In this document: positions 1 to 15,212 of the stretch, piece by piece
How positions within the stretch are numbered: the stretch's first letter is position 1
Layout of the letters: each line of letters starts with the position of its first letter
From: Clostridia bacterium
Lineage (GTDB): Bacteria > Bacillota > Clostridia > UMGS1810
NCBI GenBank assembly: GCA_017621495.1
Contig: JAGATB010000024.1
Location: 1 to 64,000, forward strand
DNA length: 64,000 bases
Reading direction: 5' to 3'
Translations under genes and position numbers: made by a program
Notes under the pieces: model-generated
Seen by the model: only the letters and a program-made list of their open reading frames with translations
Database searches by the model: none
Told to the model about the DNA's origin: nothing

Positions 1-1663
1 CTAACCTCATTAGAATAGAGAATGGTTTTTCGTGCAGTTCCATATTTACATCAGCTTCAACATCTTTGTATATATCATAACTGTATTTACGTCCGTATTT
101 CTCTTGTAGCTTTTGTATATTTGATTTTGTGTATTCATCATGGATTGTATAGCGTTCAGCCTGTACCGCCACCATATCTTCGGACGGAATACTCTTTTTG
201 ATTGATATAAATTCAGCTTTATCGTCAGCACATTGTTTTTCTAATTCTGTATTATTTGCAGCAATTTCTATAATAATATCATCATTTTTTATGTGCAATG
301 CTTTATACTGTGGAATATCTTTTTCAGATTTGCAACTCATTTTGTCAAGGAAGGCGGATTTGAGATTTTGCAATTTTTTTATTTCTTTTTCCGTCTTGTC
401 TATATGTTCCGTCAATTCTTTATGGCGAAAAATGTGTATTGGATTTAAATGTTTCTGCTCGGCTTTCATTTTCTTCAATTCGGTAATTTTATTATCTAAC
501 TGCTGGACAATTCCGTTATACCTTTGAACAGTAACATCAATAGTGGTGTTATACTGTTTGAGTTCTGTGGATATGTTTTCATTTTGCGTTATTTCATAAC
601 GGTTAAATATATATCTGTTCCGCAAATTCTCTAATGTATTTGCAAAATCCAAAACAGTTTTTTTCACCTTATCTACAACTATTGCCGATAGCTTTTTGAT
701 TTGTTTCTTTATTTCAAGCAACAAAGCGTTATCAGCTTTTATTTGCCTGTTCATTTCGCACCGTTCCGAAACACCGCCGCGCTGTTCTATGATATGCGCG
801 GAAACACCCTCGTGAATAGTCGGCTGCTCGTCAATGCCGCACTCCTTGAAGCTGCGGCAGTCAACGCGTGCGTCAATGCTGTTCTGCTCCAGTGCCTTAT
901 TCGTGACTCCTTCCCATGCTTTGCGCCAACGTAAGACCTGTTCCTCGCTGTTCCACTCGGCGCATATGGGATTTTGCCTTCCGTATCGCGTACTTTTGGG
1001 ATTTTTGCTTACCCTCTCATATCCCTGCTGTTCGGCTTCGGTGGGAGTCATATACAGCTTTTTCTTGTCTACCTTATACTGATACTGCTTTTCCCAGCCG
1101 TCAGCTTGTGCAGTCTTGAACTCGGCTGCTGTAAAGCCGCGTTCTTCATCACCGCGTTTGCATAAATACTCTTTCTGCGTCTTAGCCTGCCACTTGCCTT
1201 TATCATCAATCGGTCGCATAGTTAGCAGAATATGCGCATGAGGATTATGCCCGTCGGTGTCATGTATGCTGACGTCAGCACACATACCCTTATTGACGCA
1301 CTGTTTGGATATAAAATCTTTAAGAATGGCTTTCCATTCATCAAGTCCGATTTCAACGGGTAAGGCAACAATCAGCTCCCGTGCAAGTCGGCTGTCCTTA
1401 GCTTTTTCGGCAGCTTCGACAGCGTTCCATAATTCTGTCCTATCCTGCCATTCTGGCGGAGCATTGGACGGCAAGAATATTTCGCTGTAAACACAACCGT
1501 GCTTGCGCGTATAGTCATGCATCATGCCGTCATAATCGTTGTAGATTTTCGAGCATGACGCATAAGCCGCAGCAGCTACTACGGAACGTCCAGTGCCGCG
1601 GCTTATCATCTTTGCTTCAAAATGGTAGATTGCTATTTTGAACACCTCCGTATGGTCTGCCAT
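1..1663 (-). CDS. MobA/MobL-family relaxase, C-terminus outside the window
   Basis: This relaxase would nick oriT and pilot the transferred strand during mobilization by a conjugative helper. The frame is open for 554 codons from an ATG at 1661-1663 and runs off the left edge. The N-terminus has the family pattern AIYHFEAKMISRG, followed by SVVAAAAYASCSKI. The metal-binding histidine motif HDTDGHNPHAHILLTMR is near residues 134-150. A charged coiled-coil-like region occupies about residues 320-550. The start is problematic: the best Shine-Dalgarno (GGAGG, 1646-1650) is followed 8 nt later by ATA, exactly where homologues begin M-AIYH. The ATG used here lies upstream of that site and has no ribosome site. 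The oriT is just upstream (1905-1939). Confidence 0.85.
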   Translation of the reverse strand, partial: MADHTEVFKIAIYHFEAKMISRGTGRSVVAAAAYASCSKIYNDYDGMMHDYTRKHGCVYSEIFLPSNAPPEWQDRTELWNAVEAAEKAKDSRLARELIVALPVEIGLDEWKAILKDFISKQCVNKGMCADVSIHDTDGHNPHAHILLTMRPIDDKGKWQAKTQKEYLCKRGDEERGFTAAEFKTAQADGWEKQYQYKVDKKKLYMTPTEAEQQGYERVSKNPKSTRYGRQNPICAEWNSEEQVLRWRKAWEGVTNKALEQNSIDARVDCRSFKECGIDEQPTIHEGVSAHIIEQRGGVSERCEMNRQIKADNALLLEIKKQIKKLSAIVVDKVKKTVLDFANTLENLRNRYIFNRYEITQNENISTELKQYNTTIDVTVQRYNGIVQQLDNKITELKKMKAEQKHLNPIHIFRHKELTEHIDKTEKEIKKLQNLKSAFLDKMSCKSEKDIPQYKALHIKNDDIIIEIAANNTELEKQCADDKAEFISIKKSIPSEDMVAVQAERYTIHDEYTKSNIQKLQEKYGRKYSYDIYKDVEADVNMELHEKPFSILMRL

Positions 1664-1696
1664 GCAGACACAAGTTTTTGTTTCTTTTTTCAAAAA

Positions 1697-1781
1697 GAAA
1701 ATGAGCGGCAGCTCATGCTTGCTAAAAGCTGTCGGTGACAGGTTTTAGCAAACAGCCGAGAAAATGAGCGGTGCTCATTTT
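1697..1781. repeat. Cluster of three hairpins between oriT and relaxase
   Basis: Three adjacent dyads are visible: ATGAGC/GCTCAT (1701-1706/1711-1716), a 15-nt-arm imperfect stem built on TTGCTAAAA/TTTTAGCAA (1719-1733/1737-1751), and a perfect 9-bp stem AAAATGAGC/GCTCATTTT (1761-1769/1773-1781). The unit AAAATGAGCGG occurs twice, at about 1698 and 1761. They lie in the 330-nt gap upstream of the relaxase. They could be relaxosome binding sites or attenuator structures for mob transcription; the sequence does not decide. Confidence 0.6.
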
Positions 1782-1904
1782 GCATTGGCAACAATGCTTT
1801 GCGGGAGTGGTCTCCAGCAATTCGGCTGTACCGATAATTACGCTTGCGTGATTGTCGGCGCTCCCGGCAAGGGCGCAACGTCTGCCGCTGAAAGCGAGCA
1901 GTAC

Positions 1905-1939
1905 CACCACCTTTACGGTGGTGAGTAAGTGCGCCCTTA
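1905..1939 (+). other. Putative oriT, RSF1010/R1162 (MobQ) type
   Basis: A perfect inverted repeat CACCACC (1905-1911) / GGTGGTG (1917-1923) with a 5-nt loop is followed two bases later by TAAGTGCGCCCTTA (1926-1939). A hairpin immediately 5' of TAAGTGCGCCCT is the hallmark of RSF1010/R1162-class origins, where MobA nicks inside the GCGCCC segment. The site lies about 240 bp upstream of the relaxase start, the normal arrangement. The exact nick position is inferred from the family. Confidence 0.8.
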
Positions 1940-1993
1940 ACAGGGAGAAGAAGGAGCTTCGCTCCTCGAAACCCCCTCAAAATAGGTACCCGT

Positions 1994-2200
1994 TTAAAAA
2001 TCTGTCCTCATTCGGCTATGCAGAAACTCCTCCAGTTTTTCAAGTTCTACTGTTACTATCTGCGGAAAAACTTTTTCAAGAACCGCGCCTTCCTGAATTA
2101 ATCTTCTCGTCCTCGCCTTACGTTCACGTACACGATTACGCGCTTCTGCTTCTTCAAGCCTGTGCTTTGCCTGTAATAATTTCTTCTCATCTTCCGTCAT
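1994..2200 (-). CDS. DUF3847-family small protein
   Basis: This 68-residue, very basic and helical protein (ARNRVRERKARTRRLIQEG in the middle) matches the small DUF3847 proteins found just upstream of MobA/MobL genes in Firmicute elements. It has no catalytic motif. Its function is unproven; by size, charge and position it could be a MobC-like relaxosome accessory. Its start overlaps the stop of the DnaC-like gene by 4 nt (ATGA), so the two are translationally coupled. The oriT lies between this gene and the relaxase. Confidence 0.75.
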   Translation of the reverse strand: MTEDEKKLLQAKHRLEEAEARNRVRERKARTRRLIQEGAVLEKVFPQIVTVELEKLEEFLHSRMRTDF

Positions 2201-3045
2201 TGCTCATCACCTCCAACAAGCAATTCTTTTGCCGCCGAAAAATTCATAGCGGCGTTCATTGTTCGTATGTTTCTGTTGTTTATCTTCAGTGGCACACACC
2301 GTTCAAGCACTCTGTCATAGATACGCTTTCTTGAAATATCCGCAGGATTTTTCAGCTCGTCCAACGTCAGATTAGTCGTCACGATCAGCGGCCTTTTGCT
2401 CCTGTAACGGCTGTCAATAACGTTATAAACCTGTTCAAGCGCAAATTCCGATTGGCGTTCCATTCCCAAATCATCAATTATCAGCAACTCGTATTTATTA
2501 AGACTGTCTATAAATCCGTTTCTGTCCTCAGAAAACATATTTGTAAGACTGTTTAAAATCCTTGCAAAATTCGTCATAAGAACGGGAACGCCTGTGTCAA
2601 TCAATGCATTAGCCACACAGCCCGCGAAAAACGTTTTTCCTGTTCCTGTGCCTCCCCATAGCAGTAAGCCCGTCGACATAGCCTTCATCTTGTCCCATTG
2701 CTCAACATATTTATGCGCTTTTTCCATTTCGGGATTATAGCCTTTGTCGTTCTCAAAGGTATAATCTCTTAAAGCCTTATCATGCAACCCGCTTGAACGC
2801 AGACGTGCTATATATTCCATACACTCACGCTTTTTGCTTTCTTCCTGTTCCTTTTTGTATTCAATACTTCTGCACCTGCACATCACCGGTACAGTCAATT
2901 GTTTAGATAGTATTTCAATTTTCATCTGTTTTGGCGTATTGCATTTGGAACAATAAATAAAACCGTCAGTTTTATTTATATATTCATTTTCTTTCAGCGG
3001 CTGTTCCTTGGGAATGCCATTTAATATTTTATCAATCCTTCTCAT
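2197..3045 (-). CDS. DnaC/IstB-like ATP-binding protein (helicase loader)
   Basis: This 282-residue AAA+ protein would load the replicative helicase onto the element's origin. A Cys-rich N-terminus is visible (YCSKCNTPKQ, then a second pair in VMCRCRS), likely a small zinc-binding segment. Next come Walker A GGTGTGKTFF (about residues 130-139), Walker B LLIIDDLGME and the sensor region PLIVTTNLTLDEL. It overlaps RepA_N upstream and DUF3847 downstream by 4 nt each. The pairing of a RepA_N initiator with a DnaC-like loader is standard in these elements. Confidence 0.88.
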   Translation of the reverse strand: MRRIDKILNGIPKEQPLKENEYINKTDGFIYCSKCNTPKQMKIEILSKQLTVPVMCRCRSIEYKKEQEESKKRECMEYIARLRSSGLHDKALRDYTFENDKGYNPEMEKAHKYVEQWDKMKAMSTGLLLWGGTGTGKTFFAGCVANALIDTGVPVLMTNFARILNSLTNMFSEDRNGFIDSLNKYELLIIDDLGMERQSEFALEQVYNVIDSRYRSKRPLIVTTNLTLDELKNPADISRKRIYDRVLERCVPLKINNRNIRTMNAAMNFSAAKELLVGGDEQ

Positions 3046-3785
3046 AAGCTTTCATCCTCTCCGCAATCATAGTTTCTTGTCTGCTGTTTGCTTTGTTGCT
3101 TGTTTCTGTCCTGCAATATCCAGCTTCGGATAGTAGCCGCGTGGTTCTGATATGTTTTACCCTTAGAAGACATGTACCTCGACAACCGTTCTATATACTC
3201 GTCACACTCCGGAAAATCAGTATGCAGCTTTTTATAATCCTCACCAGATAAAAACACGTTCAGAAAACTGCCATAGGCAGTGCGTTCTTCTTGTTCCCTC
3301 ATTCTTATTATATTATTCTTATTTATATCATTCTTATTTCCGGGCATATTTCTGCCATCGGAATGAACAATTTTCTGCCCTTGATTTGATAAAAAACTGT
3401 CCTCGGCAAGACTGTTTTCTGTCCTCGGTACAGTCAGATTTTTGCCTTTGTAATCATGAGGGATTTTTACATATATCCGGCTCGCCTGTCCTATGCCTTG
3501 ATGTACTCGCAAAATTAGTTTGTTGTCCTCCAACGCGGTAAGTGCTTTTTTTACTGTTGTACGGCTGCGGTCAATATCGGCGGCTATATCGTCAAGAGGG
3601 TAGTATACGAATATCCGTCCCTGACTGTCTGAGTAATCGGCGTTGACTATTGACAGCCGCGCTCTGTCAAGCAGCATGATATATACAAGCTTTGACGTTT
3701 CGCTTAACGGCACTGTAAGCAAAAATTTCGGATACATCATATACGGCAGCATAACTGTATGCGCTGTTATGTAGTCAGTCAACAT
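3042..3785 (-). CDS. RepA_N-family replication initiator
   Basis: The N-terminal half has the RepA_N winged-helix pattern: YPKFLLTVPLSETSKLVYIM, then LLDRARLS, then DIDRSRTTVKKALTALE as the recognition helix region. The C-terminal part resembles DnaD-type helicase-loading tails. The start at 3785 is chosen because AGGAGG sits 6 nt before that ATG; an earlier in-frame TTG at 3791 lies inside the spacing. It overlaps the end of tnpW by 11 nt and the DnaC-like gene by 4 nt, forming one operon. Expected role: replication of the excised circular form. Confidence 0.85.
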   Translation of the reverse strand: MLTDYITAHTVMLPYMMYPKFLLTVPLSETSKLVYIMLLDRARLSIVNADYSDSQGRIFVYYPLDDIAADIDRSRTTVKKALTALEDNKLILRVHQGIGQASRIYVKIPHDYKGKNLTVPRTENSLAEDSFLSNQGQKIVHSDGRNMPGNKNDINKNNIIRMREQEERTAYGSFLNVFLSGEDYKKLHTDFPECDEYIERLSRYMSSKGKTYQNHAATIRSWILQDRNKQQSKQQTRNYDCGEDESL

Positions 3786-3957
3786 CTTCAACCTCCTTTA
3801 CAGTTTCTCTTATGCGATTTTCAAGTATCTGCAAGATTAAATCCTCTGCTGTATTCTTTGCATTCGGGTTCCCGAACGATGAAATGATAAAAGTGGTATT
3901 GCCGCACTTGCGCTTGTACGGTGCGCCAAGTGTAGCTGTCTGTAAAATATGTGGCAT
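3775..3957 (-). CDS. tnpW: TnpW-family transposon-encoded small protein
   Basis: The protein has 60 residues. The segment TATLGAPYKRKCGNTTFIIS followed by AEDLILQILE matches the small TnpW-type proteins encoded beside RepA_N in Tn4451-like elements. The function is unknown in the family. The ribosome site AGGAGG is 8 nt before ATG. It is the first gene of the tnpW-repA-dnaC-DUF3847 operon; the promoter candidate (TATATT on the minus strand, 3987-3992) and the phased repeats at 4019-4047 lie just upstream. Confidence 0.75.
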   Translation of the reverse strand: MPHILQTATLGAPYKRKCGNTTFIISSFGNPNAKNTAEDLILQILENRIRETVKEVEDVD

Positions 3958-4018
3958 AAAAAATGCCTCCTTTCGCTGTAAACTTTAATATAAGTCTACA
4001 CGAAAAGAGGCAAAAACT

Positions 4019-4047
4019 CATTGACTGCAAATTGAGCGTAAATTGAC
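4019..4047 (-). promoter_or_regulatory. Three 11-bp-phased GTCAAT-type direct repeats upstream of the rep/mob operon
   Basis: On the minus strand the motif reads GTCAATTTACG, CTCAATTTGCA, GTCAATGAGTT, three direct repeats one helical turn apart. They are followed 26 nt later by a TATATT -10-like box with only a weak -35. This is the geometry of an activator array before a weak promoter. The same repeat, with the same 11-bp period, occurs at 11095-11123. The binding protein is inferred to be the element's STAND protein. Confidence 0.6.
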
Positions 4048-4129
4048 TAATTTGCCGATATTAAATTTTTAATGTTTACTCCGTATACCGCAGCCATATT
4101 TTTAAGCTCAGTCAGCTTCATTTGCAATA
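4046..4129 (-). repeat. 84-bp direct repeat, left copy (orphan 3' end of the STAND gene)
   Basis: These 84 bases match 8775-8858 with one mismatch (C4056 versus T8785, a silent serine codon change). They encode the last 25 or so codons and the stop of the STAND gene, here without the rest of the gene. The fragment fuses by chance to upstream bases to give a 62-codon reading frame (4047-4235) that is not considered a gene. Everything between the two copies appears to be inserted. Confidence 0.92.
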
Positions 4130-4252
4130 CACATTGAAAACAAATCGCATTGTGCAAGGTGTATAATGAAAACACTTTGGACGGTAAATTATTAAATATA
4201 TTATAATACTTATATGTGTCTTGGCTATGATGCAAGAAATATACTGCTTTGA

Positions 4253-5983
4253 TTAAATTTCATTTTGTATGTTATGATTATCAGCCACCCAACTAATTGC
4301 AGTCTTTTGTAATTTTTCTAAAAGTTCAATATGTTTTTTATAATTAATATTGTTTAAACATCTTCGTTTTCCAGTTAATTTAATCACATTACTCGCTTTT
4401 TCTTCCATTCCGGTTTCTCGTTCAGTTCCAACAATAACCTGTCCTTCATCAGATAAAAATAGTTCTAACGATTTAAAAATAGACCCCAAATTTTCAGTGT
4501 CTTGACCCTGCTGATTAGGCGTATCAACTACATAAAAATTGAATGGGCTATATGCTCTCTCCAGATTATATAGATACAATGCAGATTGATACATATAAAC
4601 CAATCGTGGAGTTTCACTACCCGTACGATTTATTACCTGCACGAAATCTCTTAGTTTTATAAATGTTTTTGGAACATTAATTGCGTCTGCCAATGTACGG
4701 CAATACCTTTCAATATCTTCTCGTATATCTTTGGAACGCTCCTTGGATTTCTTTTCGTTTATTTTTTCATCAGTTATTGCAATTTTAGAAACACATGAAT
4801 TTATTTCACCTTGAAGTACATCCAACTGTCTCTTACAAGATTCATATATTTCAAATTGACCTTTACTTTTATAAAAAGAAGAGTAGGATAGTAGCTCTTG
4901 AGTGTTTTGAACTTTTTGTTCAATAGACTGAATCTCTACAGAAACATCGTTATACTTGTTCTTAAGTTCTTCCAATTCTTTTGTGGCAACAGATATACTG
5001 CTTTTCAGCTCTGCAATAAGATTTTCACAATGGGCATAATCCGAGGTTATATTTAATTGCTCATTTATTCCGTTTGAATAAATAGTACCACAAAATGGAC
5101 AAATCAGCTCATCTTCTTGAGTCATTGCATACTCAATATCTTTTTTTGTCTCTATTAGGTTGTGTTCAACAATGTGTAGTTTATGCTGATTGATATATAT
5201 ATCATTTTCCAAAACTGTCATCTCTGCGTTATAAGAAAATTGTAATTTCCTTAATTCTTCCGCTTTAGCAAGTAGAAGCTCAATATCTGTTGTAACATCT
5301 TCAACAGATTCTATATCTTCTATTCGTGTAAGTGTAGATGTAATACGGGAAACAAAGTTTTGATTATAGTTCAATTCTTTTTTCTTATCATCTCTTTCAA
5401 GTATATGTTCTGCTTTTTGTGCTTGAAGTGCATAGTAGGAATCATCAAGGTATCCACACACATATTTATTTGTATTTGCTTTCCAATCTTTAATATAAGC
5501 AACATTCTTAAAAGAATCAGCTATCTTGCTCCACCCTTCGTCTTGGTCAATATATTGAAATCTAAAAAGCAATGGTGGTGTTATATTGAATTGTTTTCCG
5601 TCTTTAGATATGCAAGGCATCTTAATTTCTAAAATATCCATTAAGCAATTGCTGTATTCATGAAAAGCATTTGTTTCAATGATGCAAGAAAAATCATTGT
5701 TTATATTTTCAAAAATTTGAAACTTTTTATCTTGGCGAACAATACAGAATTGTCTTTCTCCATATTTAAAGAACAATAAATAGGTAGAAACTAATTTTTT
5801 CCAATCCGCCTCAACCCTTTTGCATTCACATCCCAAAGTAGTAAATATGCTTTTGATAATAGAAGACTTTCCAGTTTTATTTCCGCCCAAAATAATATTA
5901 AGTCCTTTTTCAAAAGGAACCTCTAACGAACGAGACTCACTTTGACTGATGACTATCAGTTTTCTTATCATTAGCCTTTTCAT
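4253..5983 (-). CDS. SMC/Rad50-like ABC ATPase, LmuB-like (Lamassu / ABC-three-component)
   Basis: The protein has 576 residues. Walker A GGNKTGKSS is at 33-41. Long coiled coils (about 185-290 and 310-425) are separated by a single hook-like CPFCG at 295-299. A signature-like segment RTGSETPRLVYMYQSALYL follows (453-471), then Walker B YVVDTPNQQGQD (484-495) and an H-loop-like region IVGTERETG. In Lamassu and ABC-3C systems such an ATPase senses aberrant or phage DNA and licenses the effector nuclease. The coiled coils are short compared with Rad50, and the usual Walker B glutamate position is a threonine. AGGAGG precedes the ATG, and the start lies inside the 45-codon ORF. Confidence 0.8.
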   Translation of the reverse strand: MKRLMIRKLIVISQSESRSLEVPFEKGLNIILGGNKTGKSSIIKSIFTTLGCECKRVEADWKKLVSTYLLFFKYGERQFCIVRQDKKFQIFENINNDFSCIIETNAFHEYSNCLMDILEIKMPCISKDGKQFNITPPLLFRFQYIDQDEGWSKIADSFKNVAYIKDWKANTNKYVCGYLDDSYYALQAQKAEHILERDDKKKELNYNQNFVSRITSTLTRIEDIESVEDVTTDIELLLAKAEELRKLQFSYNAEMTVLENDIYINQHKLHIVEHNLIETKKDIEYAMTQEDELICPFCGTIYSNGINEQLNITSDYAHCENLIAELKSSISVATKELEELKNKYNDVSVEIQSIEQKVQNTQELLSYSSFYKSKGQFEIYESCKRQLDVLQGEINSCVSKIAITDEKINEKKSKERSKDIREDIERYCRTLADAINVPKTFIKLRDFVQVINRTGSETPRLVYMYQSALYLYNLERAYSPFNFYVVDTPNQQGQDTENLGSIFKSLELFLSDEGQVIVGTERETGMEEKASNVIKLTGKRRCLNNINYKKHIELLEKLQKTAISWVADNHNIQNEI

Positions 5984-6074
5984 TGTCTTTTTCCTCCTGT
6001 TGCTTTCGCAAATTTCTGATTAAAATTTTGTAATTTTGCTCCTGTTTAATTGTTTCAACTAAATTTTTGCTCAT
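5937..6074 (-). CDS. 45-residue ORF between nuclease and ATPase, candidate middle component
   Basis: A GAGGTG ribosome site ends 8 nt before the ATG at 6072-6074. The frame starts 20 nt inside the end of the nuclease gene and stops 47 nt inside the ATPase gene. The product is highly charged and helical: MSKNLVETIKQEQ, then NLRKQQEEKDNEKAND, then a lysine- and serine-rich end. Known Lamassu and ABC-3C operons often have a small middle component (LmuC/MC) between effector and ATPase. This one is much shorter than usual. It might instead act as a leader coupling the two larger genes. Confidence 0.6.
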   Translation of the reverse strand: MSKNLVETIKQEQNYKILIRNLRKQQEEKDNEKANDKKTDSHQSK

Positions 6075-7146
6075 AATATAACACCTCAATTAAAGATTTA
6101 TCAAGAGAATCCGACAGAAGATTATGCTTTTGCAATTCTTGAATGCATAATCTTTTCAATTCGCCACTAAACTCATTTGCCTTAAATGATTCACAATATG
6201 TAGAAATTGTTTTTCGCAGAATAATTACAATTTCTTGATATCTAACATCTTTTACATCAAGCCATTTTGCATCGTGGAGTGTTTTAGCTGCTTCTATACG
6301 ACAAATATCATTGTCTGATAATGCTTGTGTAATTAAGTAATCGTGAAATGCATTGTAATTTCCGCTATTTTTTATATTACCATCAATTTTCTTGCCTATT
6401 TGAGCGACATCGATACCCTTTTTCTCAACTAAGCTTTTCTTACTAATAGGTACTTTAATTTTCTCTTTACTCTTTTTTCTTACATCATTTAGCAATTGTT
6501 GAAGAATAAGATTAGCTGTATTTGTTGGAATATTCTTATCAGCTAAGTGACTGAAAAATTCTCCCTTAGTTTGATTTTCATATGCCGCTAATTGCAAATC
6601 AGATTTATGAACAAAAGTATTTTGTATAAACGCATCAAATACAGAATCAAAATTGCTTGGCATATCATTGGTAAATTCATCTTTTAATCTGTTTTTGATT
6701 TTTTGATATAGTACACTGTTTTCTTCTTGCAACTTTTTGCCGTCTTCAATAACTGCCTGCCATAACAAAACTTCTTTATCAAAATCATTATTTGACACAA
6801 AATGACAATGTGAGCATTCTGCACCAAATACCAAATAGTTATAAAAAATAAAACCTAAAAAGGACTTCTTATATCCACCACTTTTTTTCTTTTCCCGTTT
6901 AGACATTTCTGCAATAGTCCAGTCAGAGGAATCTTCTTTGGTCTTTACTTGAAAAAACTGATACTGTTGATTATCGGGAGAAAATTCTGCCATATCATCG
7001 TGAAACTCGCAAAAGACAATACACTCCGCATCCTCTTGAAGTTTACTTATTATATGGCATACAATCCAGTGAACTTGATACTCGAATCTATTATACGAGT
7101 CGGAACCTGCTTGTTCGCGCTGTTCAACAGTAAGTACTTTGCTCAT
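6055..7146 (-). CDS. DUF4297/Cap4-type dsDNA nuclease, LmuA-like effector
   Basis: The protein has 363 residues. The N-terminal domain has the Cap4/DUF4297 pattern SDSYNRFEYQVHWIV (15-29), acidic residues in FCEFHDDMAEF (E47, D50, D51) and the catalytic QVKTK at 66-70, a PD-(D/E)XK fold signature. The C-terminal 240 residues are mostly helical and unassigned. In CBASS and Lamassu this nuclease degrades DNA when triggered. It overlaps the stop of AbiEii by 4 nt (ATGA) with AAGGAG upstream, so it is coupled to the AbiE genes. Identification rests on motifs; the effector role is inferred. Confidence 0.8.
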   Translation of the reverse strand: MSKVLTVEQREQAGSDSYNRFEYQVHWIVCHIISKLQEDAECIVFCEFHDDMAEFSPDNQQYQFFQVKTKEDSSDWTIAEMSKREKKKSGGYKKSFLGFIFYNYLVFGAECSHCHFVSNNDFDKEVLLWQAVIEDGKKLQEENSVLYQKIKNRLKDEFTNDMPSNFDSVFDAFIQNTFVHKSDLQLAAYENQTKGEFFSHLADKNIPTNTANLILQQLLNDVRKKSKEKIKVPISKKSLVEKKGIDVAQIGKKIDGNIKNSGNYNAFHDYLITQALSDNDICRIEAAKTLHDAKWLDVKDVRYQEIVIILRKTISTYCESFKANEFSGELKRLCIQELQKHNLLSDSLDKSLIEVLYYEQKFS

Positions 7147-8060
7147 GATTCAAGGCTCCTTTCTTTTTTATCCCATTTGGTAATAAAGTTCCATACTTTT
7201 TGCCATTCATCTTCATTCACTATCGCCTCAAAAACAGGCTCAAGGAAAGTCTGTATCTCATCAATTACAACAGAAAATTCAAGTGTATCATCCTTGATAT
7301 TCTTCAAGAAATACTTCCACCGTTTCTGCATATCTATATCATCTGCAAGGGATATAACTCGCTTGAAGCTATCCTTATCATAGGGCGTTCCGCGCCGCCG
7401 CAAGGTTTCAAAAATTGCCTTCTGTAATCGTGCTACATTAAAATCAAAAGTCCTTGCCAGATAATAGATGTCATGAAAATCTTTCATTCGGCTGGTCAGC
7501 TCAAAGCGTTGCAGAATAGTGTCGAACTTTTCCGCAATGGTGCTTTCCAGAGAGTAGGTTTTGATAAAAGGTGCCTCAAAATCTGGGAGCTGTGTATTGA
7601 TTTTGCGTTGTTCTGCCTTTGGTACAATAACATCTCCAACACCTATATCCACATTAAAAGGCACTCGTATATTTTTTATCTGTCCTATAATCTGAGTACT
7701 GACGCCATGATACTTTCTTTGCGGAGAAATCTCCTCAAATCCTTTTGCAGTCATATTGATATAGTTGTTGCCCGTGGGAGTGTCAATAATTTTGCAAATT
7801 AAACCCTTAACATCGTCTATGGAATTAGAGTATCCACGGAGCAGAAAATCAACGTCAATAGTGGCTCTGCTTTCAAAATTTGTAATGGTATAGATAAATA
7901 AGCCGCCTTTTAAAACCAGAAAATTATCATATCCTGATTTTGAAAGTTTTCGCAAAAATTCCTCCTGCATAAACAGCTGTAAGCACTGTTGATAACTAAT
8001 ACCGGATGCTTTTGCTTTATTTTTAAGCTTTGCAAGAACGGATGCTGCTATATCTGCCAT
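7143..8060 (-). CDS. AbiEii-type nucleotidyltransferase toxin
   Basis: The protein has 305 residues. The nucleotidyltransferase motif I region is LVLKGGLFIYTITNFESRA then TIDVDFLLRG (the DxD pair). The family block SLESTIAEKFDTILQRFE plus SRMKDFHDIYYL follows. AbiE toxins modify cell targets and cause bacteriostasis unless balanced by AbiEi. The start at 8060 is chosen because GGAGTG lies 9 nt upstream and the ATG shares one base with the AbiEi stop (TAATG). It is followed with a 4-nt overlap by the Cap4-type nuclease, an unusual coupling. Confidence 0.87.
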   Translation of the reverse strand: MADIAASVLAKLKNKAKASGISYQQCLQLFMQEEFLRKLSKSGYDNFLVLKGGLFIYTITNFESRATIDVDFLLRGYSNSIDDVKGLICKIIDTPTGNNYINMTAKGFEEISPQRKYHGVSTQIIGQIKNIRVPFNVDIGVGDVIVPKAEQRKINTQLPDFEAPFIKTYSLESTIAEKFDTILQRFELTSRMKDFHDIYYLARTFDFNVARLQKAIFETLRRRGTPYDKDSFKRVISLADDIDMQKRWKYFLKNIKDDTLEFSVVIDEIQTFLEPVFEAIVNEDEWQKVWNFITKWDKKERSLES

Positions 8061-8665
8061 TATAACCACACTCCAATCAAATCTTTGACGCGTTTTTGAA
8101 CTCGCAATTCTTTTGCATAACGCATAAGGTTGGGAATATTTTTTTGAGGATCCTTTACATAACCTTGAATGGATTTATTAAAAATTTCCCTATCCATTTT
8201 ATTCATGTTTTTAAGAACATCGCACATTGTGCGATCGCGGTCATAAATACGAACCGGAGTAAAATCTATTTCACCTTTTGTTTCACCTATGAGTAACAAA
8301 TCGGATTCGATTCGATAAGCCCTGACAAACGGATAGTCTATTTTCGTGCGCTGTCTTGATGCATTTTTGTCTATTGCTATATGCCATTCGGCAGGGTTCC
8401 TGTCACTATAGCTGTAATAGAACAATGCTGTTTCCATGCAGAGGATTGCGTCTGGGAATAGTTTGTTTATAATAACAACTTCTTTGCAATCATTATCTTC
8501 AATCCAATGGTAGTAACCTCTTTTTACCTTTTCAATCATGCCTTTTTTTAGCATTTGCTGAATATCTCTGTAGTACAGTTTTTCCAAATTCAATTGAGCT
8601 GTCGTCATAATATAATCATACTTTGTGAATATCTGTTTAAGATATTCTGTATTTAGTTTAATCAT
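8060..8665 (-). CDS. AbiEi-type antitoxin / autorepressor
   Basis: The protein has 201 residues. An N-terminal winged helix (IMTTAQLNLEKLYYRDIQQM then GMIEKVKRGYYHW) is followed by the AbiEi C-terminal domain (FPDAILCMETALFYY, ending in VKDLIGVWL). The family antitoxin neutralizes AbiEii and represses its own promoter by binding inverted repeats. The ATG at 8665 follows GAGG by 7 nt; an upstream GTG at 8671 overlaps the ribosome site. A perfect 13-bp inverted repeat and a consensus promoter lie just upstream and would govern all five genes. Confidence 0.87.
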   Translation of the reverse strand: MIKLNTEYLKQIFTKYDYIMTTAQLNLEKLYYRDIQQMLKKGMIEKVKRGYYHWIEDNDCKEVVIINKLFPDAILCMETALFYYSYSDRNPAEWHIAIDKNASRQRTKIDYPFVRAYRIESDLLLIGETKGEIDFTPVRIYDRDRTMCDVLKNMNKMDREIFNKSIQGYVKDPQKNIPNLMRYAKELRVQKRVKDLIGVWL

Positions 8666-8679
8666 AGTCACACCTCTGT

Positions 8680-8721
8680 ATTAAATCACACCTTGATTTT
8701 TAAATTGTGGTGTGATTTAAT
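8680..8721. promoter_or_regulatory. Perfect 13-bp inverted repeat, likely AbiEi operator
   Basis: ATTAAATCACACC (8680-8692) and GGTGTGATTTAAT (8709-8721) are exact reverse complements separated by 16 nt. The right arm starts 2 nt downstream of the -10 box, so the expected transcription start lies inside the operator. AbiEi proteins are known to autoregulate through inverted repeats of this kind. Confidence 0.8.
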
Positions 8722-8723
8722 GC

Positions 8724-8752
8724 ATTATATCAAATATCTGTTATACTGTCAA
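8724..8752 (-). promoter_or_regulatory. Consensus sigma-A promoter of the defence operon
   Basis: On the minus strand TTGACA (8747-8752) and TATAAT (8724-8729) are separated by exactly 17 nt. Both boxes match the consensus completely, so this is a strong promoter that needs repression by the adjacent operator. Confidence 0.85.
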
Positions 8753-8774
8753 TAACTTTATAAACTTTTGTGTT

Positions 8775-8858
8775 ACTAATTTGCTGATATTAAATTTTTA
8801 ATGTTTACTCCGTATACCGCAGCCATATTTTTAAGCTCAGTCAGCTTCATTTGCAATA
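8775..8858 (-). repeat. 84-bp direct repeat, right copy (3' end of the intact STAND gene)
   Basis: This is the in-gene copy of the repeat whose orphan counterpart is at 4046-4129. Identity stops abruptly at both edges: bases left of 8775 and right of 8858 do not match the other copy's flanks. Confidence 0.92.
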
Positions 8859-11076
8859 GCTCCGGCTCGTTTGCCCATAAATCGGTATATATCCTTAGTG
8901 CAGTTTTAAAATACATTACGGCAGTGTCTTTATCACGCATTTGTGTATAGATACAGCCTATATCCCACGCCAGATTGGCGTAGTCGCTGCTGTTTTCCGA
9001 ATTGTATTCCTTAACCGCGTTCGCACAGCGTTTTAACGCCTGTATTGCTTTTCTCGGTTCTCCCATACTGGCAGCTAAATTAGCGTAGTTGCAAACCTGA
9101 ATAACCGCGTCATTAGTAAAATCAATACCGCTGTCAACAAGCGTTTGATACGCAAGCTCCATATAATATTTAGCTTTATCAAGCTGATTTTCAGTGTGAT
9201 ACAAACCGCCGATATTACCGTAAATATTCGCCGCTAAATGCGGATTGACCGTCGCTATTTCCTCACATAGCTTGACCGCCCGCTGCTCATATTGCAAAGC
9301 CTTTTTATGATTTTTATTGCATATATGTTCGTACGCAGCTTTATAATCAAGCAGTATAGCCTTGTCCTCGTTCGTATCAACAAGCGATTGCAATTCTGAT
9401 ATAATTAGCTCCATTCCCGAACGGTAAGCATATTTCTCCATATATGCAAACACATCTTTAAGAAACAGCTTATACCGCTCTGTATCGTCATTATTCGCAA
9501 TATCTATTGTGTTCTCAGCTATTTTAAACAAGAGCGTGTGATACGGTAAATCTAAACCGTGATATAGGCACAGTATCCTTACGGCTTCAATTAAGTTTAT
9601 ACAGCTTGATATGCCCGGTTTTGTATCGTCTATGGCAATTTCCTGTATAAGTGGATGGAGCGTGATTTTTCTGTAATCGTTTTCTTGTATAAAGCCGTAT
9701 TCTATAAGCTCATTTATAGTGTTAAGATTATTCAATCCTATCCATTTCGCCAACATTCTCGGATTTATTCCATCATACGGTATCAGCGTCATACAGCGCA
9801 TAATTTTGACAGCTTTATCCGATAACCCTATCAAGGACAACAGCTTATGGATATGCTCATAATAGGTCGCTTTTGAGCTTGTACCATCCTTTACGATGTT
9901 GATTTTATCATCTGTGTGAAGTACGCTCTTTGTGCTTTGAAGCTCCGTTAACAGTCTGCATGGCTCCAAGATCCCAGAAGTCAATAAGCGTGCTGCAAGT
10001 TCTACCGACAACGTATGGTAGTGCAATTCATTGATAATGTTTTCAACCACATTAGTATTACTTCGTGTATCTGCATAGAAATATTCTGATAACGTTAAAA
10101 GGCTTTCAAGCGGCATTTCTTTTAGCTCAAAGTATGTATAATCCTTAAAACGACTTCGCGTGGTAAACAATATTTTGCATCGATATTTCATTATCACGTC
10201 AAATAATTCATCGTCTGATGCGGTGATATTAAAATTGTCGATAATTATTAAGGTGTCTTCTTTTAAGCTCCTCAAAAAGCGGTTATGCTTTTTTAAGAGA
10301 ATATTCTTGCCGTCCGTAAGGCTATCATCGGCGAAATCACAGTCTGTAATCATTTGCTTTAAACTGCCGCCATAGCTGAAATACAGAATGTTCGTGTATT
10401 CCTTTTTGTATTTTTGAGCATACATTTTAACAAACTCACTTTTACCTATACCGGCAATGCCCTGAATAAAGATCTTGTTTTCATCTTCTAACATGGTATG
10501 CAGTTTTTCAAGCTCGTTATCGCGGCCGCAGAAATGCTTACAGGGTTTGGGGACAAGACTGTATATGTAATCCTTTGTCTGAGGAGAAAGCGCTCCGGAA
10601 GCGATCAGCTTCTTTGTGTTAGCATCTCTTTTTATGAATTTCCTTTCCATTCCAAAAAAGACAAGCTTACTAATGAAGTTTGATATATCAGCATCATCTT
10701 TGTATGGATAATTGTCTGCAAGCTCTTGCTTTTTTGTTTCAGATACAGTTGTATCACTCATCAGCAGATCATACAGTTCCGTAACAGCCATATCTTTATC
10801 ATAAAACAAAGGCAATATATTTTCTTCAATATCAATAGCCATAGCTTCAAGATTGCCAAGCGCAGAATAATACGCTGTGATTTTAGGGCTTAGTTTTGCA
10901 GTACCATTCAGCCAACGGCATACAAGTCCGTTGTCAAAATCGAAATCTTTGGCTTCATCGCTTTCCATAAAATCTTTAAAAAGCTCATACATAAAATCAA
11001 TTTGGTTTATATTTTTGCTCTCACCGATAAAGTCCATAAGAATCTTTGCGGTAGAACAGAAATCACATATCTTCAC
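8776..11076 (-). CDS. STAND-class NB-ARC ATPase with C-terminal TPR repeats
   Basis: The protein has 766 residues from a GTG start at 11076, chosen because GGAGG lies 8 nt upstream; the longer frame to 11118 has no ribosome site. The N-terminal 170 residues include an HTH-like segment LVCRWLNGTAKLSPKI. The NB-ARC core has Walker A GIAGIGKS (206-213), Walker B TLIIIDNF (about 275) and ILFTTRSR (302-309). The last 250 residues are TPR-like helices (ANIYGNIGGLYHTENQLDKA). STAND proteins are signal-gated switches; family members serve as transcription activators (AfsR/SARP-like) or antiphage sensors. The element context and shared repeats favour regulation, as inference. Confidence 0.8.
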   Translation of the reverse strand: MKICDFCSTAKILMDFIGESKNINQIDFMYELFKDFMESDEAKDFDFDNGLVCRWLNGTAKLSPKITAYYSALGNLEAMAIDIEENILPLFYDKDMAVTELYDLLMSDTTVSETKKQELADNYPYKDDADISNFISKLVFFGMERKFIKRDANTKKLIASGALSPQTKDYIYSLVPKPCKHFCGRDNELEKLHTMLEDENKIFIQGIAGIGKSEFVKMYAQKYKKEYTNILYFSYGGSLKQMITDCDFADDSLTDGKNILLKKHNRFLRSLKEDTLIIIDNFNITASDDELFDVIMKYRCKILFTTRSRFKDYTYFELKEMPLESLLTLSEYFYADTRSNTNVVENIINELHYHTLSVELAARLLTSGILEPCRLLTELQSTKSVLHTDDKINIVKDGTSSKATYYEHIHKLLSLIGLSDKAVKIMRCMTLIPYDGINPRMLAKWIGLNNLNTINELIEYGFIQENDYRKITLHPLIQEIAIDDTKPGISSCINLIEAVRILCLYHGLDLPYHTLLFKIAENTIDIANNDDTERYKLFLKDVFAYMEKYAYRSGMELIISELQSLVDTNEDKAILLDYKAAYEHICNKNHKKALQYEQRAVKLCEEIATVNPHLAANIYGNIGGLYHTENQLDKAKYYMELAYQTLVDSGIDFTNDAVIQVCNYANLAASMGEPRKAIQALKRCANAVKEYNSENSSDYANLAWDIGCIYTQMRDKDTAVMYFKTALRIYTDLWANEPELLQMKLTELKNMAAVYGVNIKNLISAN

Positions 11077-11094
11077 GATCCACACCTCCGATTT

Positions 11095-11123
11095 TGTCAA
11101 TTTACGGTCAAATTCCACTCAAT
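11095..11123 (+). promoter_or_regulatory. Three 11-bp-phased GTCAAT-type direct repeats between STAND gene and recombinase
   Basis: The plus strand reads GTCAATTTACG, GTCAAATTCCA, CTCAATGTAAA, the same array as at 4019-4047. It lies in the divergent region between the STAND start (11076) and the recombinase start (11314). On the plus strand a TATATT box follows at 11140-11145, one helical turn closer than in the other copy, so the array may drive the recombinase. It also overlaps the likely leader of the STAND gene, allowing autoregulation. Confidence 0.6.
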
Positions 11124-11143
11124 GTAAAATATCATGATTTATA

Positions 11144-11160
11144 TTATACTACCAGTATAA
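11144..11160. promoter_or_regulatory. Palindrome TTATACT-acc-AGTATAA
   Basis: A perfect 7-bp inverted repeat with a 3-nt centre lies in the divergent promoter region. TATACT/AGTATA resembles -10 boxes on both strands, so it could be an operator overlapping back-to-back promoters. No binding protein can be named. Confidence 0.45.
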
Positions 11161-11313
11161 CACAAATCGTTATAAAAATATATAGAAATGAGAACAGCAA
11201 TTATTAATATTTTGTAAAATAATTCGACATTTTCTATTGCATTTTATCTCATCTTGCGGTAAAATAGTAATATACAAAATATCTTGAATTGCTGTTTCGG
11301 AAAGGAATAAAAA

Positions 11314-12927
11314 ATGAAACAGAAACAGCAGTATAATAAAATAACGGCTCTTTATTGCAGACTGAGCAGAGATGATGAATTTAACGGCGACAGCGTGAGC
11401 ATACAGACACAAAAGGCAATGCTAAAACATTACGCAGATGAAAACGGTTTCGGTAACTGCCAATACTTCATAGACGACGGATACTCAGGCACTAACTACA
11501 ACCGTCCCGATTTTCAGCGGCTCCTCTCAGAGATTGAAGCAGGCAAGGTCGGAACGGTCATAGTAAAGGATTTATCCCGATTAGGCAGAGAGTATTTGCA
11601 GACGGGATATTACACCGAGGTGTTGTTCCCAAAACATAATGTTAGATTTATCGCAGTCAATGATGGTATTGACAGTGATAACGGTGAGAACGAATTTGCT
11701 CCGTTCAAGAACATCATAAACGAATGGTATGCAAAGGATATTTCCAAAAAAGTTCGTTCGGCGTACAGAACAAAGGCTCTGAAAGGCGAATACACGGGCA
11801 GACGCGCTCCATACGGCTATATGAAATCGCCGGAGGATAAGCACAAGCTCATTCCCGATGAACACGCTCCTATTGTACAGCGCATGTACCGTATGGCATT
11901 GGAGGGTAAGACCTGCACCGAGATTGCATATACTCTTAAACAGGAGCATATACCAACTCCCGGAGCGTATACAAGGGATAAAAACGGCGTTCTACAGAAA
12001 ACGGAGGGCATACAGTTTCCGTATGATTGGATAAAGCGCGGCGTACAGGTTATTCTTCAAAATCCTGTTTATATGGGCGATATGGTCAGCCAGCGGCGCA
12101 CGTCAAAATCATTTAAGGATAAGCGCGTTATTGTAAGACCGGAAAGCGAGTGGATAACCGTTCCGAATACACATGAGCCGCTTGTCAGCCGAGAGGATTT
12201 TGAAACGGTACAGAAGCGTATCAGCGTTAAGAAGCATTTTAACGAAGCCAATCCCGATAATATCTTTAAGGGTTTGCTTGTATGCGGAGAGTGCGGAAAA
12301 ACAATTGTATACAAAAAGGAACACAGCGTTAATCATACTCCGAAATATAAATGCAACAGGTATGTAAGGCATGGTAGAGGCAGCTGCACACCTCATTCAA
12401 TAAATGCTGATGATTTAAAGGCCATTGTATTGGAAGATATAAACCGCCATATCGCGCTTTCAAGCAATGATAGGTCATTATACATAGAGCGGTTTATTAA
12501 TCGTTCTGACAGCCAAATACACGATGAGAAAACCTCTTACCAAAAGGAAATGCAGAAAACAAAACAGCGTCTTGACGAGCTGAATATAATCCTGCAAAAC
12601 CTTTACGAAGATAAGGTTTTTAAACGCATTTCCGAGGAACGGTATTTCGCGATGTCCGCAAACATTGAAAAAGAGGAAGCGCAGCTAAAAGAGCGATACA
12701 ATGAGCTTCAAATAAAGCTCACTCATTATACAAAGCAGAGCAAATCCGTACAGGAATTTGCGGATTTACTCGAACAATACACAACGATAACCGAGCTTGA
12801 CGCGGTTTTACTGAATACCTTGATTGAGAAAATCGTTATCCATGAACAGATAGACGAGGACGGTAACAAAGTAATGCCGATTGAGATCTACTATCGATTT
12901 ATCGGGAATGTCGGTATCGGTTCATAA
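11314..12927 (+). CDS. Large serine recombinase (element integrase/excisionase)
   Basis: The protein has 537 residues. The resolvase-type catalytic domain starts with ALYCRLSRDDEFNGDSVSIQ, with S18 as the attacking serine. IVKDLSRLGREYLQTGYYTE follows. A recombinase domain with PYGYMKSPEDKHKLIPDE comes next, then a zinc ribbon (CGECGKTIVYKKE, then CNRYVRHGRGSC), a coiled coil and a DUF4368-like end (TLIEKIVIHEQI). These enzymes integrate and excise clostridial elements without host factors. Length is typical of this class, shorter than TnpX (about 700). A 195-nt leader separates it from the divergent STAND gene. Confidence 0.93.
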   Translation: MKQKQQYNKITALYCRLSRDDEFNGDSVSIQTQKAMLKHYADENGFGNCQYFIDDGYSGTNYNRPDFQRLLSEIEAGKVGTVIVKDLSRLGREYLQTGYYTEVLFPKHNVRFIAVNDGIDSDNGENEFAPFKNIINEWYAKDISKKVRSAYRTKALKGEYTGRRAPYGYMKSPEDKHKLIPDEHAPIVQRMYRMALEGKTCTEIAYTLKQEHIPTPGAYTRDKNGVLQKTEGIQFPYDWIKRGVQVILQNPVYMGDMVSQRRTSKSFKDKRVIVRPESEWITVPNTHEPLVSREDFETVQKRISVKKHFNEANPDNIFKGLLVCGECGKTIVYKKEHSVNHTPKYKCNRYVRHGRGSCTPHSINADDLKAIVLEDINRHIALSSNDRSLYIERFINRSDSQIHDEKTSYQKEMQKTKQRLDELNIILQNLYEDKVFKRISEERYFAMSANIEKEEAQLKERYNELQIKLTHYTKQSKSVQEFADLLEQYTTITELDAVLLNTLIEKIVIHEQIDEDGNKVMPIEIYYRFIGNVGIGS

Positions 12928-12993
12928 CATATGATTTTTAGGGCAGTTCTCATGACCGCCCATTACAGGAAAGTTACCGCCGCAATAAACAAC

Positions 12994-13932
12994 TCACTTG
13001 TTTGGGGACTGAATTTTTTCTAATATAATTTGTCTTTCTTCACCTGTTATTTGGAGCATATCCAGTGCTTTTTCCGCTGTTGCTCCGGTTGTAGTCATTA
13101 AGCTCTTGACAGAACCTAATTTTGCTTCGAATTTTCCGTTATTGTATACACCATCGCTCAAATTACACATTTCTGCCACCTCGCTTTCGTAATCTGATGA
13201 CATCTTTATGTCATACTCTTTTTCCAATATTTCTATTCTGTTTTGGCTATCGGCTCTGCAGGTGAGAAGTGTCTCCAAAAGTCCGATAACCGTATCTGTT
13301 TCCTTATCTCCGTTGCCCAGGCACAGCATTATTATGTTCATCAAGTCATAATGCTGTTTATTTTCTTTAACCGAGCCAATTACATTCTCTTCGGATATTC
13401 TATACCTTGTTATTGTGCTGCGATGACTTTGGGGAGGATTGGAGCATATCCATATGGAATACACTTTCTTTATTTTATTATATTCCGAATTGAAAAATTC
13501 CATACCCTTTTGTGCAGATATCATTCTGCTGCAATAATACACTGCCCTTTTGAGCAAAGGGTAATCCGGCTTGAAAGCATTCTGAGCTTCTACATTTATG
13601 ATAAGCTGTATGATTTCACCATCCGAGCCCGGTGCATTCGCCTCGAAGCGTATATCGTATGTAATCTTGCCTTCGTTTACAGATATATCTTCATTGGCAA
13701 GTGCTTTGATGCTTTCGGCAGTTTCGACTGCATCCACACCTACGGAAGCTATTTGCGGCTCACCGGATATATAGTTTACGATTTCATCTATTGTGCATTC
13801 CTTAAATTCCTCGGCACAGTATTTGAGTATCCATGCAAGTATCTGCTTGTTGGAAAGCAGTTTTTTGCATTGCTCATCATATCTTGCCTTGGAATCTATC
13901 AAACGAATATTTTTCTTTAGTTGATTATCCAC
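12994..13932 (-). CDS. PD-(D/E)XK nuclease-family (Rpn/transposase-like) protein
   Basis: About 312 residues. The start is taken as GTG at 13932, 8 nt after GAGG; in-frame ATG and GTG codons also occur at 13938 and 13941. The nuclease-like core is ITYDIRFEANAP, then LIINVEAQNAFKPDYPLLKR, where D and E-x-Q fit a PD-(D/E)XK site. YYCSRMISAQKG follows. Proteins of this kind are abundant in clostridial genomes and usually named Rpn or PDDEXK transposase-family; their role is unclear. Its 3' end abuts the mobile element's presumed right border, so the element may have inserted at or near the end of this gene. Confidence 0.7.
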   Translation of the reverse strand: MDNQLKKNIRLIDSKARYDEQCKKLLSNKQILAWILKYCAEEFKECTIDEIVNYISGEPQIASVGVDAVETAESIKALANEDISVNEGKITYDIRFEANAPGSDGEIIQLIINVEAQNAFKPDYPLLKRAVYYCSRMISAQKGMEFFNSEYNKIKKVYSIWICSNPPQSHRSTITRYRISEENVIGSVKENKQHYDLMNIIMLCLGNGDKETDTVIGLLETLLTCRADSQNRIEILEKEYDIKMSSDYESEVAEMCNLSDGVYNNGKFEAKLGSVKSLMTTTGATAEKALDMLQITGEERQIILEKIQSPNK

Positions 13933-14037
13933 GAGCATCACCTCTTACGAATTTATTATATCACATTTGTTGCGTCAATTCAACTATTTATTATAATTTT
14001 TTCAACCTTTTCTAACACAAATGAATATTTTTGAAAT

Positions 14038-14144
14038 TTTTGTAATTTTATTGTAAAATTGTGTGCTTTTGGGTAAAAAAGCAGCAAGGAACCGTAAAGA
14101 TTCCTTGCTAATTTACGGCACATCCTAAAGGCTGTGCCCTACAA
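14038..14144. repeat. 107-bp perfect direct repeat, left copy
   Basis: It is identical over all 107 bases to 15000-15106. It holds a terminator-like hairpin (14083-14109 with a T-run when read on the minus strand), a GGCACA..TGTGCC hairpin (14117-14138) and the end CCCTACAA. The last bases supply the TAG stop of the HEPN gene (14139-14141). Together the two copies bracket a HEPN/MNT toxin-antitoxin module. Confidence 0.95.
14075..14109 (-). terminator. Rho-independent terminator of the HEPN/MNT operon, inside the repeat
   Basis: On the minus strand a 9-bp stem AGCAAGGAA/TTCCTTGCT with a 9-nt loop is followed by GC and six T. It lies 30 nt past the HEPN stop codon. The same structure sits in the second repeat copy, upstream of the MNT promoter. 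Confidence 0.85.
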
Positions 14145-14555
14145 ACAACTTTTCTCCAAAAAGTCGGTTACATACTTTTCTATTTCGTCCAAGAACAACT
14201 TTGCATTGTCAATTTGTCGTTTGGTATCCTCTTTTGATATTATATAAAAATCATCATAATCAGAACTTTCTCTTACCATAGCTGTTGTTTGTATTATTGT
14301 GCTCATTTTCTTATCAAATGTGCCGTTCTTTATATATTCTTTTCTAAAATATGCTATTACGCCGGAATGATGTTTGAAATCGACACCATCAATCGCCAAA
14401 ACAGACCTCATTGCATGAAACACACAGTAATAAGCACGATTTGCTGCCGCCTTCAATTGCTCGCCATCATACAAAATTTGTGCTGATATCAAATTATCTT
14501 TAGCCGTTTGCAATCTATACAAGATATAGCTCTTCCGTGTTTCATCATGCAACAA
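14139..14555 (-). CDS. HEPN-domain protein (toxin of HEPN/MNT pair)
   Basis: The protein has 138 residues with the family pattern AANRAYYCVFHAMRSVL (37-53), KHHSGVIAYFRKEYI and RESSDYDDFYIIS (95-107). HEPN proteins of this type are RNases or cell-arrest toxins held in check by the partner nucleotidyltransferase. It overlaps the MNT gene by 11 nt, so the pair is coupled. The final two codons and stop fall within the 107-bp repeat, implying that the repeat junction reshaped the C-terminus or always formed it. Confidence 0.85.
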   Translation of the reverse strand: MLHDETRKSYILYRLQTAKDNLISAQILYDGEQLKAAANRAYYCVFHAMRSVLAIDGVDFKHHSGVIAYFRKEYIKNGTFDKKMSTIIQTTAMVRESSDYDDFYIISKEDTKRQIDNAKLFLDEIEKYVTDFLEKSCL

Positions 14556-14886
14556 GACCTATGCCCTCCTTTTGCACATTCTTAAAAAATGGTATTATGT
14601 CTTTGTATTTCATGAATTTTTCATGACTCTCTATTACCGGGGATATAACAATATCATAGTCCAAAAGCAGTTCACCGAGATACTCAGCAATAGTATAAAC
14701 ATGCTGCATAATCTCAGATTCTTCTATGTCTGCAATAACCATAATATCAACATCAGATTTCTCGTTGTAATCTCCTCTTGCATATGAACCGTACAGAATA
14801 ACCTGCTTAAGCTTTGTGCCAAACATTCTCTTTATTTCAGAAACAAAGCTTTGTAACACAAAATCCAAATCCGCCTTTGTACACAT
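14545..14886 (-). CDS. MNT-domain minimal nucleotidyltransferase (antitoxin)
   Basis: The protein has 113 residues. The nucleotidyltransferase motif LYGSYARGDYNEKSDVDIMV gives GS at 33-34 and the metal-binding pair D45/D47. In characterized HEPN/MNT pairs the MNT protein inactivates HEPN by AMPylating it. A promoter (14927-14955) lies 41 nt upstream. The order is antitoxin first, toxin second. Confidence 0.88.
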   Translation of the reverse strand: MCTKADLDFVLQSFVSEIKRMFGTKLKQVILYGSYARGDYNEKSDVDIMVIADIEESEIMQHVYTIAEYLGELLLDYDIVISPVIESHEKFMKYKDIIPFFKNVQKEGIGLVA

Positions 14887-14926
14887 AATATCACCCTCTT
14901 TATGTCAGTATAAGTTATCTGTTTTT

Positions 14927-14955
14927 AGTATAACTCATAAATTTTAAAAATGCAA
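14927..14955 (-). promoter_or_regulatory. Promoter of the MNT/HEPN operon
   Basis: TTGCAT (14950-14955) and TATACT (14927-14932) are separated by 17 nt on the minus strand. A second TTATACT lies 20 nt downstream of the first, a direct repeat that may serve autoregulation. Confidence 0.7.
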
Positions 14956-14999
14956 CTGTTTTTTGAAAAATCTTTCACACAATCATAAATCCCGGCCTA

Positions 15000-15106
15000 T
15001 TTTGTAATTTTATTGTAAAATTGTGTGCTTTTGGGTAAAAAAGCAGCAAGGAACCGTAAAGATTCCTTGCTAATTTACGGCACATCCTAAAGGCTGTGCC
15101 CTACAA
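15000..15106. repeat. 107-bp perfect direct repeat, right copy
   Basis: It is identical to 14038-14144. It fills much of the 326-nt gap between the MNT gene and the Rieske-FAD gene. The rest of the gap is AT-rich promoter sequence with no other feature seen. Confidence 0.95.
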
Positions 15107-15212
15107 TTTAATTTATAAATTAAAATAATTTCTTCATTTAATTATAATGCTATATTGCATATTTTTCAAATATTAATTAATCATATTAATATAAATTTCT
15201 CGGAGGTAACAT

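Follow-up and report, generated by a model that had tools for sequence, protein, structure and literature searches.

The relaxases of pIP501, pGO1 and pSK41 have been grouped with MobA of RSF1010 (available text of PMC4981023), and oriT consensus sequences have been published both for the MOBQ family, with the core TAAGTGCGCCCT (available text of PMC3832669), and for its Gram-positive members (available text of PMC10333310). That Gram-negative and Gram-positive MOBQ systems share a conserved target has been published before, and the site described below is ordinary in kind. MobA of RSF1010 cleaves TAAGTGCG/CCCT; it contacts only the base of the adjoining stem, and a shortened stem is cleaved as well as the full one (PMC4814116, in the part available). 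Mobilizable elements with serine recombinases are known in Firmicutes (PMC5704250, in the part available).

The window analysed here is a stretch of 64,000 nucleotides at the start of contig 8 in the 2.2 Mb draft genome (89% complete) of a Clostridia bacterium. On its + strand, a 7-bp hairpin (1905-1923) is followed by a 2-nt AG spacer and an exact TAAGTGCGCCCTTA (1926-1939). Sequence and fold define the 5' arm CACCACC (1905..1911), which is conserved and remains paired in relatives, and the loop TTTAC (1912..1916); the 3' arm GGTGGTG (1917..1923) is, by analogy with MobA of RSF1010, the probable recognition arm of the relaxase. The nick region (1926..1939) was assigned from its motif and from relatives, and the nick is predicted between 1933 and 1934 (TAAGTGCG/CCCT), a position transferred from oligonucleotides of RSF1010 (PMC4814116, in the part available). 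An inverted repeat is present directly 5' of the core on the strand predicted to be nicked.

Based on the motif, the hairpin, the relaxase family, the position, the strand and the conservation in relatives, we are confident that positions 1905-1939 form the core of an oriT belonging to an integrative mobilizable element that has a large serine recombinase, and nicking there would proceed as in RSF1010. All six of these lines support the original prediction, which had placed an RSF1010-class oriT core in such an element.

The neighbouring gene (2..1663, - strand), cut by the contig end, encodes a MOBQ (MobA/MobL) relaxase, matching PF03389 (E 3.4e-83; 279.3 bits, cut-off 26.7) and the NCBIfam MobQ model (236 bits, cut-off 200). 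The oriT lies ~260 bp upstream of this gene, on the opposite strand. Comparison with the PDB gave 4HT4 (NES, E 6.3e-37) and 2NS6 (MobA of RSF1010/R1162, E 4.4e-11); in both alignments the catalytic positions are matched by Y34 and H134/H142/H144 of the window's relaxase. At the position of the catalytic tyrosine the 4HT4 chain shows F, and it is presumably a Tyr-to-Phe mutant.

The closest described sites are those of the pSK41/pGO1-type staphylococcal plasmids, in which the oriT lies upstream of nes. The pSK41 site, 99 bp upstream of a MOBQ relaxase, is identical to the window over TAAGTGCGCCCTTA (14/14), and also has a hairpin directly 5' and lies on the opposite strand. However, its stem sequence is different and pSK41 has its own secretion system, whereas the window holds a chromosomal element with no such system seen. 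RSF1010/R1162 (IncQ1) shares TAAGTGCGCCCT (12/12) and a hairpin directly 5'; over the 14-mer the IncQ1 oriT matches at 12/14, with CC instead of TA after the core. Its stem has 10 bp of other sequence, and its neighbours are mobC and mobB, in contrast to a DUF3847-like neighbour here. The near-identity to the MobQ origin over a great distance, as originally claimed, is borne out by these two comparisons. Upstream of the core the published MOBQ consensus is NWACCNN, with ACC 5' of the core; the window has TGGTGAG at this place, its arm being GGTGGTGAG. We did not treat NWACCNN as defining, because pSK41 has GTTCGCA there, so that this region varies in Gram-positive members. TraA of pIP501 belongs to the same relaxase family and is also of Gram-positive origin (available text of PMC4981023), but pIP501 is a conjugative plasmid and is likened to the window by relaxase family. 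The Tn4451/Tn4453 group resembles the window in its large serine recombinase and TnpW-like protein (the latter below the cut-off here), but Tn4451 has a MobV relaxase, TnpZ (PMC5704250, in the part available), instead of MOBQ, and the element does not fall in this group.

When both strands were searched, the exact 14-mer TAAGTGCGCCCTTA was found once in the 64 kb window, with a chance expectation of ~0.0005 (uniform bases). With up to 3 mismatches allowed, there were 8 matches where shuffled sequence gave 4.98 on average, which leaves the exact copy as the only notable one. The 11-mer TAAGTGCGCCC has 2 copies in the 2.2 Mb genome. The second copy, at 23509, was attributed to chance; it sits within a 443-aa chromosomal ORF (22724-24055), which we take to be glucose-6-phosphate isomerase. 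Folded as DNA, the + strand of the site gave -12.8 kcal/mol against a shuffle mean of -4.63 (z -4.98; equalled by 0/200 shuffles). ORFs overlapping the oriT (e.g. 1690-1980 on the - strand and 1852-2334 on the + strand) were taken as spurious, and an Rfam search of window positions 1-16000 gave nothing up to E 1.

Conservation of the core and the hairpin in relatives

A genome scan yielded 80 loci encoding relatives of the relaxase, of which 6 with <300 nt upstream were excluded and 74 were scored. TAAGTGCGCCCT was exact in 66/74 of these Clostridia loci and had one mismatch in 4 more. The possibility, raised with the original prediction, that relatives lack the motif did not materialise, as 70/74 loci carry it with at most one mismatch. 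In all 70 it lies on the strand opposite the relaxase gene, 129-543 nt from a reference point near the relaxase start. Two loci with an intact relaxase start (L048 and L087) had no motif within 1 kb, and it was also absent from two in which the relaxase N-terminus was not matched (L035 and L113). In a second set of 30 loci (L004-L033), obtained by searching the whole class and from one viral contig, and lying partly in the same genomes as the 80-locus set, 23/30 had the motif with at most one mismatch on the strand opposite the relaxase gene and 3 had two mismatches. The 4 exceptions were L026, L027 and L012, without a close match, and L032, with the motif on the other strand. Alignment with RSF1010 and other MOBQ origins, a check proposed with the original prediction, also had a positive outcome: among 13 named MOBQ records, 8 were within one mismatch and 12 within two, and one Psychrobacter plasmid had no motif.

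The hairpin was compared in 71 oriTs including that of the window, representing 51 distinct 60-nt upstream sequences. The core was exact in 67/71 and the spacer was AG in 70/71. A stem ending two bases before the core scored at least 7 in 41/51 sequences, against 6/5100 dinucleotide shuffles. Across the 43 clean stems, there was no variation at pairs 2-4 and 6, and pair 5 was G-T in 34 and A-T in 9, whereas pairs 7-12 varied in both arms yet stayed paired in all cells but one. This pattern suggests that the lower stem, the AG spacer and TAAGTGCGCCCT matter and the upper stem does not, in agreement with the published contacts of MobA. Serine-recombinase elements are hereby added to the known range of the RSF1010-type target, and covariation supports the hairpin.

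Since some loci are near-identical (the 71 records reduce to the 51 distinct sequences), the motif might be conserved merely because the relatives are recent copies. We regard this as extremely improbable: the relaxases reach down to ~45% identity, the upper stems differ in sequence and length while pairing is kept, and the core is also found at MOBQ loci of Proteobacteria and Bacilli. The location of the hairpin just upstream of the relaxase gene would also suit a transcription terminator or an operator of the mob operon, with the match to TAAGTGCG incidental. This explanation is very unlikely, since the nick motif varies less than the stem (67/71 exact), is confined to one strand across the 70 relatives and recurs at MOBQ oriTs of unrelated plasmids; moreover, the stem is followed by TAAGTGCG and not by a T run. 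A regulatory role in addition to that of oriT is plausible, as the recognition repeats of the pIP501 relaxase overlap the tra promoter (available text of PMC4981023).

Among the loci of the second set, a more distant Clostridia MOBQ branch (L014, L015, L017-L019, L021-L025 and L030-L033) has GGTGTA preceding the oriT core, and mostly a small second inverted repeat 3' of the core (e.g. CCCTTGTAAACAAGGG).

A repeat at the hairpin tip of relatives

The part of this analysis worth following lies outside the window. Of the 51 distinct sequences, 8 had no clean hairpin; they correspond to 10/71 loci, and all of these carry an insert (L037, L039, L040, L041, L042, L063, L090, L097, L108 and L110, the insert of L110 repeating that of L108). 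The insert lies between a lower left arm (CACCGC or similar) and a lower right arm (GTGGTGAG or similar), where it replaces the upper stem and loop and leaves the lower stem and the nick core intact. Its unit also occurs away from oriT, in viral contigs, in other genomes and in L111. We read it as a hairpin and a long helix in which G-C pairs alternate with facing GA/AG bases, and refer to it as the GA-helix repeat.

A covariance model, R1, was derived from 19 copies that included 4 oriT inserts. It matched all ten oriT inserts, over spans of 71-118 nt, and recovered inserts not used in building it: L063 with 65 bits, L042 and L037 with 45, L040 with 40 and L039 with 26. In 62 aligned matches (59 distinct rows), 97.1% of the cells pair and 22/25 pairs change on both sides, in an alignment that was fitted to the model and so favours the structure; sliding the partners by 1-3 columns reduced pairing to 40-53%. 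Matches at E 1e-6 or better were present in 36/196 Clostridia genomes, with at least 19 in one genome, and at the same threshold R1 had no match in the genome of the window. The dispersed loci are L111, L119-L125, L140-L152 and L158-L187. Rfam 15 gave 0 matches at the gathering score for six insert-bearing loci; at E up to 5, 8 loci gave only 4 matches, none of which reached the family cut-off, and these were put down to chance. A narrow literature search for the GA-helix repeat or for insertions into oriT hairpins found nothing.

In 7/30 loci from the R1 genome scan (L168, L170, L176, L179, L180, L182 and L184) a tRNA or tmRNA gene that points towards the repeat ends at most 2 nt from its right end. 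There is a resemblance between the oriT arm (GGTGGTGAG) and the reverse complement of the tRNA/tmRNA 3' end (TGGTGGAG in the tmRNA cases). Counting from the repeat's last GACG, TGG starts within 3 nt in 22/59 distinct matches and ATG in 17 (some counted twice); some other dispersed repeats stand directly before an ATG.

The relaxase tree comprised 63 rows, 10 of them with the insert, and its bootstrap values were not fully settled. The insert label requires 8 gains or losses on this tree, at least 6 of which are forced by well-supported branches. It is nearly as scattered as shuffled labels, which required a mean of 9.3, with 73/500 shuffles as low. In two pairs, L067/L097 and L052/L037, the flanks are near-identical on both sides and the difference lies mainly at the hairpin tip. 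L081/L090 and L078/L063 are also sisters on the tree, but their left oriT flanks do not align, so recombination of the whole oriT region is possible there. The closest aligned copy of the L108, L090 and L063 inserts is a dispersed copy, and that of the L041 insert, and in a tie of L097, is the L108 oriT insert; the L037, L039, L040 and L042 inserts are similar to one another. Judged from the tree, the two sister pairs and the closest copies, the insert was likely gained several times independently, the exact number being unsure.

It is somewhat probable that, in this oriT family, the hairpin tip serves repeatedly as the landing site of a dispersed structured element not described before, the GA-helix repeat. 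This repeat may recognise an arm-like sequence or single-stranded hairpins. The relaxase, which would read only the base of the stem, would tolerate the insert. If confirmed, such a repeat, present in oriT hairpins as well as next to tRNA/tmRNA 3' ends, would be of broader interest.

Gene content, predicted transfer and ends of the element

Rightward from the relaxase, the window encodes a 68-aa DUF3847-like protein adjoining the oriT (1994..2200, -; PF12958, 36.6 bits, under the cut-off of 40), a DnaC/IstB-like ATPase and probable helicase loader identified by profile match (2197..3045, -), a RepA_N replication initiator (3042..3791, -; PF06970, 39.8 bits, cut-off 30), a TnpW-like small protein (3775..3957, -; PF14202, 23.2 bits, under the cut-off of 25), cargo, and a large serine recombinase with Resolvase, Recombinase, Zn ribbon and DUF4368 domains, the probable integrase of the element (11314..12927, +). 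L038 has the relaxase, oriT and serine recombinase in the same order. The DUF3847-like protein is a possible accessory protein of the relaxosome; a narrow search for literature on DUF3847 together with MobA/MobL found nothing. The site is the putative transfer start of an element family found in many gut Clostridia, here with defence genes.

By homology with the described systems, the MOBQ relaxase would bind the base of the hairpin and the adjoining single-stranded TAAGTGCG, and would cut the + strand after G1933 with Tyr34, remaining bound to the 5' end at C1934. Export would fall to a type IV secretion system supplied by a helper, none being encoded in the part of the element seen. Transfer in this direction would bring the replication genes into the recipient early on, with the relaxase gene arriving last; there, the strand would be closed, copied and inserted by the serine recombinase.

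The element combines a serine recombinase and a relaxase in a host genome (89% complete) without a PF02534 VirD4-type coupling protein, so transfer would need a helper from elsewhere. The lack of this protein, and a left end that was not seen, would also fit an inactive oriT, either a relic in a degraded element or part of an element without a helper. We consider this unlikely, since the relaxase frame is open with its catalytic residues in place and both the hairpin and the motif are intact. In addition, a MAG labelled Roseburia contains 11,345 bp that are 100% identical to window 178-11522 (L034, which is thus not independent of the window), and a MAG labelled Ruminococcus is 100% identical over 1,246 bp (window 1-1246, L035). 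These stretches suggest recent movement, although an error in MAG binning would look alike in the sequences.

The left end of the element is not in the contig, and the relaxase gene runs off it. At the other side, similarity to chromosomal repeats starts at 12998, so the right end should fall between 12927 and 12998; no att core was defined in this interval. The cargo at 4253-8671 consists of defence genes, namely Lamassu genes resembling LmuB and LmuA, and an AbiEii/AbiEi pair. The cargo block is flanked by an 84-bp direct repeat (99%; 4046-4129 and 8775-8858), which is located at the 3' end of a 780-aa STAND/TPR gene. In L011 the replication end and the STAND/TPR gene are adjacent and the cargo is absent. 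Adjoining the element, a region with a PD-(D/E)XK transposase-like gene (12998-13990) is repeated elsewhere in the genome, with copies on contig 20 (88%) and on contig 8 near 130 kb (80-88%).
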